From assembly GCA_035539175.1 (NCBI GenBank), contig DATLIY010000009.1:310001-374000 (forward strand): DNA of 64,000 bases, given 5' to 3'. Of this stretch, positions 62,113 to 64,000 are shown in pieces (position 1 is the first letter of the stretch; each line of letters opens with the position of its first letter). This DNA comes from Acidisarcina sp. Lineage in GTDB: Bacteria > Acidobacteriota > Terriglobia > Terriglobales > Acidobacteriaceae. A program made the translations under genes and the position numbers. The notes beneath the pieces are model-generated. The model did no database searches. It saw nothing but the letters and a program-made list of their open reading frames with translations, and was not told the DNA's origin.

Positions 62113-63090
62113 ATGAACTATCGCGCCCTGGGTCGCACGGGATGGAAGGTTTCTGAAGTCAGCTTTGGTACCTGGGCCATCGGCGGCTCGTGGGGCACGG
62201 TGAATGACGAGGAATCTCTCGCCACGTTGCGCGAAGCCCTCGATTGCGGCGTCAACTTCCTCGATACAGCCGACGTCTATGGCGACGGACGCAGTGAGCG
62301 ATTGTGCGCGCAGATCAGGCGCGAGCACAAGCAGGATCTCATTATCGCCACCAAGGCAGGCCGCGGCCTGAATCCGCACACCGCTGAGGGCTACAGAAAT
62401 CTGACGCCCTTTGTCGAGCGCAGCTTGAAGAACCTCGAGACCGATTGCCTCGACCTTTTGCAACTGCATTGTCCACCGACCGATGCCTACTACATGCCGG
62501 AGATCTTCGATGGGCTCGATGAACTGGTGGAAGCCGGGAAGATTCGCTATTACGGAGTGAGCGTAGAGCGAGTGGAAGAGGCGCTGAAGGCGATCGAGTA
62601 CCCCAATGTTCAGACGGTCCAGATCATCTTCAACTGCTTCCGCCAGCGTCCCGCCGGGCTATTCTTTGAGCAGGCGAAGAAACACAACATCGGCGTGCTG
62701 GCGAGAGTGCCACTGGCAAGTGGGCTGCTTACCGGCAAGCTGCGGCGGGACTCACAGTTCGCTGCGGACGACCATCGCAACTTCAACCGTCGCGGCGAGG
62801 CCTTCGATGTTGGCGAAACCTTCGCCGGCATCGACTACGACAAGGCCCTGGACGCGGTGGAGGAGTTGCGCGATCTGCTGCCGCCCGAAGTAAGCATGGC
62901 GGAATTCGCCCTGCGCTGGATCCTGATGTTCGATGCCGTCTCCTGTGCCATTCCCGGGGGCAAACACGCCGCACAGGTCTTTGAGAATTGCCGCGCCTCC
63001 GACCTGCCGCCCCTCTCCCCGCAGACCATGGCGAAGGTGAAGGAGATCTACGACCGCCGCATCCGGCCCTTCGTCCACGACCGCTGGTAG
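62113..63090 (+). CDS. Aldo/keto reductase
   Basis: This is a 325-residue NADPH-dependent reductase of the AKR superfamily, AKR11/YhdN-like. MNYRALGRTGWKVSEVSFGT is the standard start. The catalytic residues are in FLDTADVYGDGRSERLC (Asp, Tyr), LIIATKAGRGLNPHTAEGYR (Lys) and LLQLHCPPTDAYY (His). IPGGKHAAQVFENCRAS matches the cofactor-binding tail. Its stop codon TAG is provided by the inserted element at 63083-63322. The original probably ended in TAA. Confidence 0.92.
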   Translation: MNYRALGRTGWKVSEVSFGTWAIGGSWGTVNDEESLATLREALDCGVNFLDTADVYGDGRSERLCAQIRREHKQDLIIATKAGRGLNPHTAEGYRNLTPFVERSLKNLETDCLDLLQLHCPPTDAYYMPEIFDGLDELVEAGKIRYYGVSVERVEEALKAIEYPNVQTVQIIFNCFRQRPAGLFFEQAKKHNIGVLARVPLASGLLTGKLRRDSQFAADDHRNFNRRGEAFDVGETFAGIDYDKALDAVEELRDLLPPEVSMAEFALRWILMFDAVSCAIPGGKHAAQVFENCRASDLPPLSPQTMAKVKEIYDRRIRPFVHDRW

Positions 63091-63322
63091 GTGCTGGCCG
63101 CACGGGCGGGCGCGGCTTTCGCCGCCAGTCAAGCTCGCGGCATGAAGTTTTCCCGCTAAATACGTCTGGATGCATACGATATTTCCGATTTATTTCCGGC
63201 CCGGGAATGGATTTTTGCCAGGAGACACCGCGTAGCGACCAACGGGAGCGCAAGAGCGAGCATCGTTTCCCATAAAATAGCGGCGAAAGCCGCGCCCGCC
63301 CGTGCGGCCAGCACCGCTGGTA
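63083..63322. mobile_element. MITE-like element with 36-bp perfect terminal inverted repeats
   Basis: Perfect 36-bp inverted repeats (63090-63125 and 63280-63315) enclose 154 bases without a gene, for a total of 226 bases. GCTGGTA flanks the element on both sides (63083-63089 and 63316-63322), a probable 7-bp target-site duplication (CCGCTGGTA if the 9-bp form is counted). The insertion lies at the stop codon of the aldo/keto reductase: TGG TA has been completed to TAG by the first base of the element, whereas the restored downstream copy reads TGG TAA. No transposase is present, so the element is non-autonomous. Confidence 0.88.
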
Positions 63323-63340: not shown

Positions 63341-64000
63341 ATGTTTGAGAACCTTTCTGAAAAGCTGCAGCGGGCGTTTAAGAATCTTCGCGGTCAAGGT
63401 GTTATCACCGAGGAGAACATCGGAGAAGCGCTGCGCGAAATCCGCGTCGCGCTGCTGGAAGCCGACGTCAACCTGAATGTCGTCAAAGATCTGATTGAGC
63501 ACATCCGCGTCAAGGCCATCGGCCAGGAAGTGATGACGGCTCTTTCGCCTGGCGAACAGGTAATCAAGATCGTCCGCGATGAACTGATGACGCTGTTGGG
63601 CAAGGACACAGCGCGATTCCAGTTTGCCTCTCGGCCGCCGACCGTGATTTTGATGGCCGGTCTGCAGGGCTCGGGTAAAACGACCACCTCCGGCAAGCTT
63701 GCAGCCTGGCTGCAGAAGGGTGGACACCGGCCCATGTTGGTTTCGGTGGACGTCTATCGCCCGGCGGCACGGGAGCAGTTGAAGGTGGTAGCCGCCTCGA
63801 TCAAAGCCAGTCTGTACGAGGGAGATTTGAAGGGCGAGGCTCCCGGCTCCGCTCTGGTGGAACGCCTTGCGAAGGAGGCCCGGCGGGAGGCGGTCAACTC
63901 GGGTTGCGACACGCTGATCGTCGATACGGCCGGCCGCCTCCATGTGGATGAGCAGCTGATGGACGAGATGCAGCAGTTGAAGACGCTGCTGAATCCGCAG
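63341..64000 (+). CDS. ffh: Signal recognition particle protein Ffh, N-terminal part (cut by window edge)
   Basis: The first 220 residues of the SRP54 GTPase are visible. The N domain begins MFENLSEKLQRAFKNLRGQG, with EENIGEALREIRVALLEADV. The G domain has the P-loop GLQGSGKTTTSGKLA, the insertion-box region VSVDVYRPAAREQL, and DTAGRLHVDEQLMDEMQQL. The end of the G domain and the M domain continue beyond 64000. AAGGA precedes the ATG by about nine bases. The MITE-like element lies directly upstream and may affect its promoter. Confidence 0.96.
   Translation, partial: MFENLSEKLQRAFKNLRGQGVITEENIGEALREIRVALLEADVNLNVVKDLIEHIRVKAIGQEVMTALSPGEQVIKIVRDELMTLLGKDTARFQFASRPPTVILMAGLQGSGKTTTSGKLAAWLQKGGHRPMLVSVDVYRPAAREQLKVVAASIKASLYEGDLKGEAPGSALVERLAKEARREAVNSGCDTLIVDTAGRLHVDEQLMDEMQQLKTLLNPQ

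Follow-up and report, generated by a model that had tools for sequence, protein, structure and literature searches.

Where an aldo/keto reductase gene adjoins ffh, a short segment with perfectly inverted ends occupies the stop codon of the former, which raises the question of whether this segment has been inserted, what kind of element it represents and whether its location at a stop codon is particular to this site. The locus is part of the window, by which we denote the whole 64,000-nucleotide stretch of DNA analysed, all of it from one contig of a 3.9 Mb genome (13 contigs, 99.96% complete). An initial sequence-only reading had described the segment as a MITE-like element that rebuilds the stop codon into which it had inserted, a description whose parts have fared differently in our analysis.

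Insertion into the stop codon of the reductase gene

The element comprises 226 bp (63090-63315) between the two genes and, together with the target copies on either side, occupies the range 63083-63322 (Table 1). As described initially, it is bounded by perfect inverted repeats, which are 36 nt long, 100% complementary and separated by 154 nt. Directly repeated copies of GCTGGTA flank the element and, because the right arm ends with ACC, the match stretches to ACCGCTGGTA (63080-63089 and 63313-63322), so that the target duplication, previously given as 7 or 9 bp, has a possible length of 7 to 10 bp. The left arm, whose GTGC core starts at 63091, completes the stop codon of the reductase, with the first base of the element contributing the G of TAG, and the downstream target copy reads TAA, both in agreement with the earlier description. 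The same holds for the distance of 25 bases between the element and the ATG of ffh, a gene recognised by its SRP54 domains. No open reading frame of at least 60 amino acids is located wholly within the element, and frames of 95, 126 and 156 amino acids cross one of its ends.

The state of the junction without the element is found in G001, the sole other genome of the genus that was returned by our searches and the one empty genome on which the comparison relies. G001 contains the same gene pair, with a reductase ortholog that is 85% identical to the one in the window and ends with TGG-TAA, followed by ffh at a distance of 17 bases, and the element is absent. It carries one copy of ACCGCTGGTAAACTAAGG, its junction reads GACCGCTGGTAAACTAAGG, and TAAGG ahead of the ffh start is common to both genomes. 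If the flanks in the window are joined across the insertion, 174 of 210 positions match G001 without a gap. The net gain of the window amounts to 233 bp, consisting of the 226-bp element and 7 bp of target duplication, the 7-10 bp length of the latter being measured against this empty site. The old stop codon was TAA and the insertion point is located after its TA, where the G of the element has turned it into TAG. In the more distant relatives G036 and G010, the reductase adjoins other genes, as judged by reading of the loci. The empty site with TGGTAA that had been suggested as a check has in this way been found, and a 233-bp insertion inside the reductase stop codon, with the stop rebuilt, is confirmed as real.

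Table 1. Features of the reductase-ffh junction (positions in the window).
Feature	Positions	Strand	Basis and remarks
Aldo/keto reductase gene	62113-63090	+	ORF; PF00248, E 5.6e-65; stop TAG 63088-63090
Upstream target copy GCTGGTA	63083-63089		Sequence; single copy in G001; extendable to ACCGCTGGTA from 63080
Left arm, complete two-hairpin REP-like unit, sense	63090-63125	+	Inverted repeat; R1 match 63091-63125, 50.2 bits
Element interior, 154 bp	63126-63279		Only short matches in family genomes
Motif B (CGCTCCCGTTGGTCGC on minus strand)	63235-63250	-	1 mismatch to motif
Right arm, identical unit, inverted	63280-63315	-	Inverted repeat; R1 match 63314-63280, 50.2 bits
Downstream target copy GCTGGTA, runs on into old TAA	63316-63322		Sequence; comparison with G001
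ffh (SRP54 domains)	63341-64000	+	ORF and domains; leaves the window at its end

At the RNA level, the junction folds with much greater stability than shuffled sequences (z-score -7.6), for which the perfect arms alone would account. Two terminator-like sites were found, both on the minus strand. An intrinsic terminator, consisting of a stem followed by a T run, was not detected on the gene strand, nor was a Sigma-70-like promoter between 62900 and 63500. In mRNA or single-stranded DNA, the paired arms could form a 36-bp stem, the main effects of which would be expected at the 3' end of the reductase mRNA and on its coupling to ffh, whose start region the insertion would have left untouched.

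A dispersed two-hairpin repeat at both ends

The 226-bp element was not seen a second time, either in its own genome or, among the best two candidates per genome, in 300 genomes of the family, and over the same range we saw no insertion sequence with matching ends, for which the sequence-only reading had recommended a search. At the same depth, 49 of the 300 genomes contain matches, mostly to single arms, and G064 shows an 82-bp match at 73% to the right arm and motif B. A search of 60 relatives returned single arms only, in G001 and G035, and none of the matches listed pairs such ends around a gene, a result limited by contig breaks in the draft genomes and by the capped number of candidates scored. 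Phage and plasmid sequences contain no match to the element, and one exact match to the arm core in viral contigs, located inside a coding frame by reading, is taken as chance.

Allowing up to 3 mismatches, the window contains two occurrences of the arm core, one in each arm, versus 0.06 expected from shuffled sequences. In the family, it is found at up to 1 mismatch at 84 places in 31 of the 300 genomes, mostly singly, versus 12 places for a backwards control (a count taken from the result table), which bears out the expectation that copies of the arm should be present in relatives. From the core comparisons we dropped L015-L023, which are from the own genome and at 3 mismatches near the control level, and L080. 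The exact 24-letter pattern matches 17 stretches in a collection of 84,980 species, all of them acidobacterial by title and including Paracidobacterium acidisoli.

Many copies share a common layout, in which a 4-bp stem with the loop TNGCC is followed by an 8-base link containing GGC and by a second stem, mostly of 5 bp with a TTC loop. A stem of at least 5 bp follows the core in 25 of 45 rows, versus 8 and 9 in two control windows, and some of the core matches devoid of a hairpin may be chance. For a broader characterization we pooled 162 units, for which the motif and a paired first stem were required and orthologous copies such as L032/L033 and L052/L200 were kept unmerged. Pairing of the first stem is thus imposed by selection; 76 units have GTGC/GCAC at this place, 67 have GGAC/GTCC and 19 have other pairings, with GAAC/GTTC among the variants. 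In folding, single units did not stand out from shuffled sequences in the three stretches compared (z -0.80, 0.04 and -0.40), which include the left arm in the window, and no Rfam family was matched up to E 1 between 62900 and 63500 or at 7 other loci.

The model R1 detects both arms in the window, where everything else scores at most 14.2 bits. Its alignment was chosen partly by pairing, and its covariation is for this reason no independent proof of the structure; for alignment A2, we took the 24 of 49 candidate units that are equally long. Counted at E <= 0.1 among the best 150 candidates per genome, and thus as lower bounds, R1 copies number at least 23-91 in each of eight relatives (at least 91 in G164, 76 in G122, 60 in G156, 44 in G035, 40 in G090, 31 in G064, 29 in G071 and 23 in G152), at least 14 in G140, 11 in G120, 3 in the own genome and 1 in G001, and several family genomes show no R1 match. 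The 3 copies of the own genome are the two arms and a unit at C3:105060. From the top of the R1 matches listed in G071, G164, G035 and G090, we took 60 stretches. In a sample of the phylum, searched under stricter filters with the best 17 candidates per genome, R1 is found at E <= 0.01 in 17 of 396 genomes, 11 of which belong to the family, and all matches above 35 bits lie inside the family. The single matches of 28-34 bits in the 6 genomes outside of it are read as chance, and some matches within the family are no stronger. In the searches made, the repeat is thus strong in one bacterial family only, which is taken to be the Acidobacteriaceae since all exact-pattern matches are acidobacterial by title.

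Two observations concern the arrangement of individual copies. At L004 (G000:C3:105060) and L007 (G001:C114:3053), what is apparently the same gene contains the unit core in frame and close to its C-terminus, and this copy seems to predate the split of the two genomes of the genus. At L339, L328 and L309, units form short direct tandem arrays, close together or about 90 bp apart.

The pairing of two units in opposite orientation is found less often. In the loci examined, single units are far commoner than pairs, and the motif search returned 7 opposite-strand pairings within 700 bp at 6 loci, 2 of them with identical arms, namely the one in the window and one in G071, whose 39-bp arms reside between two divergently oriented genes, read as recG and a gene for an ABC transporter, and around which no direct target copies were seen by eye. 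R1 adds one further opposite-strand pair, L330, with arms unlike each other.

The interior of the element is distinct from its ends. Allowing up to 3 mismatches, 28 of the 162 units have motif B on their 3' side within 90 nt, and 1 of 162 has it upstream. The motif was derived chiefly from G122 copies, and without this genome the numbers are 16 versus 1 of 142. In the window it is placed equivalently, 3' of the unit of the right arm on the minus strand. For the interior as a whole, the best two candidates in each of the 300 family genomes include only matches of about 20-40 bp (E 0.0008-0.01), and no convincing relative of the part to the left of motif B was found among them. The element is thus a mosaic of a unit, about 100 bp devoid of known relatives, an inverted motif B and an inverted unit. 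At pdxS loci from another genus (L241-L244, L251, L253), a different repeat, CGACCARCGGGAGG, is located within about 20 bases past the stop codon and resembles motif B in opposite orientation.

Finally, we looked for transposases of the Y1_Tnp family (PF01797), of which the own genome (G000) contains none. In 27 relatives, 80 Y1 matches are listed, and 60 Y1 loci of relatives, many of them cut by contig ends, contain no R1 match of at least 20 bits; three partial or weak matches reach 16-17 bits. In G071:C1 near 729518 (L376:1786-2029), a Y1 transposase gene is accompanied by a palindrome near CCCACATCTCGGCGAGATGTGGG in four copies, a repeat distinct from that in the arms.

Position of the repeat at stop codons

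The exact fit of the element into a stop codon appeared in the sequence-only reading as a property of this insertion. Although the rebuilt stop codon has been verified, its position is no singular event. Among 90 copies selected by their core, 20 directly follow a stop codon and 6 complete a TAG with their first base (26/90 in total), with 0 to 5 cases at other offsets, in a count that applied no filter on reading frames. Among 68 copies selected by the model (68 of 73 R1 matches, with five below 23 bits left out) and counted with an upstream open frame of at least 60 codons, a rule that differs from gene calling, the respective numbers are 14 and 18 (32/68). The pooled 162 units show 31 stops directly before the unit and 27 completed by it (58/162), with 0-5 cases at other offsets and 0-3 per offset in an antisense control, and 104 of the 162 are not at a stop by the criterion used. 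By type, the 58 consist of 27 TAG completed by the unit, 13 TGA, 10 TAG before the unit and 8 TAA. Without the loci of leuB and pdxS, fetched as orthologs of genes with a unit at their stop codon, 56 of 157 units are at the stop of an upstream frame of at least 60 codons, and 25 of these supply the G of TAG; if G122 is left out as well, 52 of 142 remain, and other offsets average 0.7.

By reading of the protein ends, the genes with a unit at their stop codon include leuB, pdxS, dnaJ and dnaN. At leuB and pdxS this position recurs across genera, and other orthologs are without a unit. For leuB, 13 of 22 loci have a readable gene end, of which, by eye, six carry a unit at the stop codon (L204, L205, L209, L211, L213 and L214), five carry none (L206, L210, L212, L219 and L222), L207 has a variant unit and L208 is ambiguous. 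Clear units at pdxS are found in L234, L238, L245 and L261, and many other pdxS ends are without one. We also sought clean empty sites for single units at both genes, where the flanks have diverged too far to place insertion points. The remaining copies of the family are located in tandem behind another unit or within reading frames, in some cases near C-termini. At L135 (G064:C3:748231-748264), the unit apparently provides the last codons and the stop codon of the upstream gene and is followed by two B-like motifs.

The location at stop codons is thus a habit of the repeat family and its most common single position. As possible origins, insertion may favour sites 3' of TA or TRA, a hairpin at the stop may be under selection, or only those insertions may survive that keep termination intact. 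A machinery, or alternatively tolerance, that sets the start of the unit directly 3' of TA, TAA or TGA would cause stop codons to be kept or remade. We tentatively propose, as a doubtful possibility, that the family is a mobile repeat of the Acidobacteriaceae aimed at stop codons, which would enter sense-strand 3' of TA, TAA or TGA, restore termination by its own first G and employ a machinery that is not RAYT-like.

Origin of the inverted pair and relation to known systems

The insertion with its 7-10 bp duplication and rebuilt stop is directly established, as are the affiliation of both arms with a dispersed family of two-hairpin units and the frequent position of this family, in sense orientation, at stop codons. 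The element is probably an inverted pair, or dimer, of an Acidobacteriaceae REP-like repeat that entered the TAA of the reductase gene in a single piece. Such a pair would act as a non-autonomous mobile unit with the outward-facing unit starts as its ends, and it most likely entered as one non-autonomous piece. An inverted pair is not the usual form of the repeat, as most units are single and only two of the seven opposite-strand pairings have identical arms. A target duplication is not expected from HUH enzymes, the usual route of REPs, and a DDE enzyme or gap repair has therefore to be considered.

A true MITE, derived by deletion from a DDE-type insertion sequence with 36-bp ends and a 7-10 bp duplication, whose ends were either taken from the repeat or have seeded it, is in our view unlikely. 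Its perfect long terminal repeats, small size and empty site would fit, as would the target duplication, since many DDE transposases generate duplications of this length. Conversely, neither the own genome nor the best two candidates in each of the 300 family genomes contain an insertion sequence or another copy with such ends, the identity of the arms ends exactly at the end of the second hairpin of the repeat, and single repeats prevail over pairs in the loci examined. It is quite improbable that the element was built in place, by entry of a sense unit into the stop codon and later addition of the interior and the inverted arm through template switching or gap repair, with the target duplication as by-product of staggered breaks. 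The left arm alone indeed resembles a typical unit at a stop codon, and both arms share the loop TTTC, absent from the other rows of the 45, as in a copied arm; however, the right flank restarts with a direct target copy instead of an inverted left flank, and two events are required. The view of an old hairpin of the reductase-ffh junction, for which we found no support, is ruled out for practical purposes by the G001 junction with its single target copy and no hairpin, and would survive only if G001 had precisely lost the hairpin plus one target copy.

How does the preferred reading, of a REP-like pair inserted as one piece, relate to known systems? Bacterial MITEs are small and have inverted ends and a target duplication. 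The element is like them in its size, its inverted ends, its target duplication and its non-coding character, which upholds this part of the initial MITE-like assignment, whereas neither a parent insertion sequence nor several dispersed copies of the element were seen within the search depth given above. The repeat conforms to REPs as a dispersed short palindromic sequence with at least 91 copies in one relative and 3 in the own genome, and no RAYT (Y1_Tnp) is associated with it in the own genome or at the 60 Y1 loci.

REPINs are described as inverted doublets of REPs, and the element resembles them in its inverted palindromic copies, a less conserved spacer, the potential to form one long hairpin and a non-autonomous nature, as far as covered by the part of that study considered here (PMC3116915). 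Whereas inverted doublets are the main form of REPINs, the loci examined contain mostly single units and few pairs, with 2 identical-armed pairs among the loci of 162 units; the spacer spans 154 bp, no RAYT is linked and a target duplication is present. A parallel to the location at stop codons is found in GTAG and CGTC REPs, palindromic repeats of 20-40 bp located mostly 3' of genes and in some cases within them, of which the ends of GTAG REPs often provide a TAG stop codon and CGTC REPs also come without a dedicated transposase (PMC3733652). The portion of that report considered here mentions Acidobacteria only for transposases with other terminal repeats (PMC3733652). Unlike these REPs, the unit in the window forms two hairpins and lacks a constant tag, be it GTAG or CGTC: the base preceding TA varies in copies that complete a TAG, TGA and TAA stops are also used, and the model stems of 4 and 5 bp differ from the 8-9 bp stem of CGTC REPs. 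TnpA-REP is reported, in the excerpt considered, to cleave CT or CA sites (PMC8266576). For E. coli, earlier work cited in the part considered of a further study reports lowered translation where a REP is located at most 15 nt from a stop codon; the table of the citing study includes the acidobacterium Granulicella aggregans, and its predictions may contain units of the family analysed here (PMC12306157). Our repeat shares with the E. coli REPs the placement of a palindrome directly after a stop codon, and differs from them in sequence and phylum and in being known from its sequence alone.

In the text of the literature covered, we recognised no description of this acidobacterial repeat, and we do not claim that it is unpublished. 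The confirmed insertion is that of an inverted REP-like pair, and REPs that supply TAG stops have been reported before. It provides a REP-like dimer for which filled and empty sites form a clean pair, and it shows a target duplication unexpected for the usual HUH route. The more interesting part is the family-wide location at stop codons, where about a third of the examined units are positioned to the base and which, whether it reflects targeting or selection, bears on the roles of REPs at gene ends.
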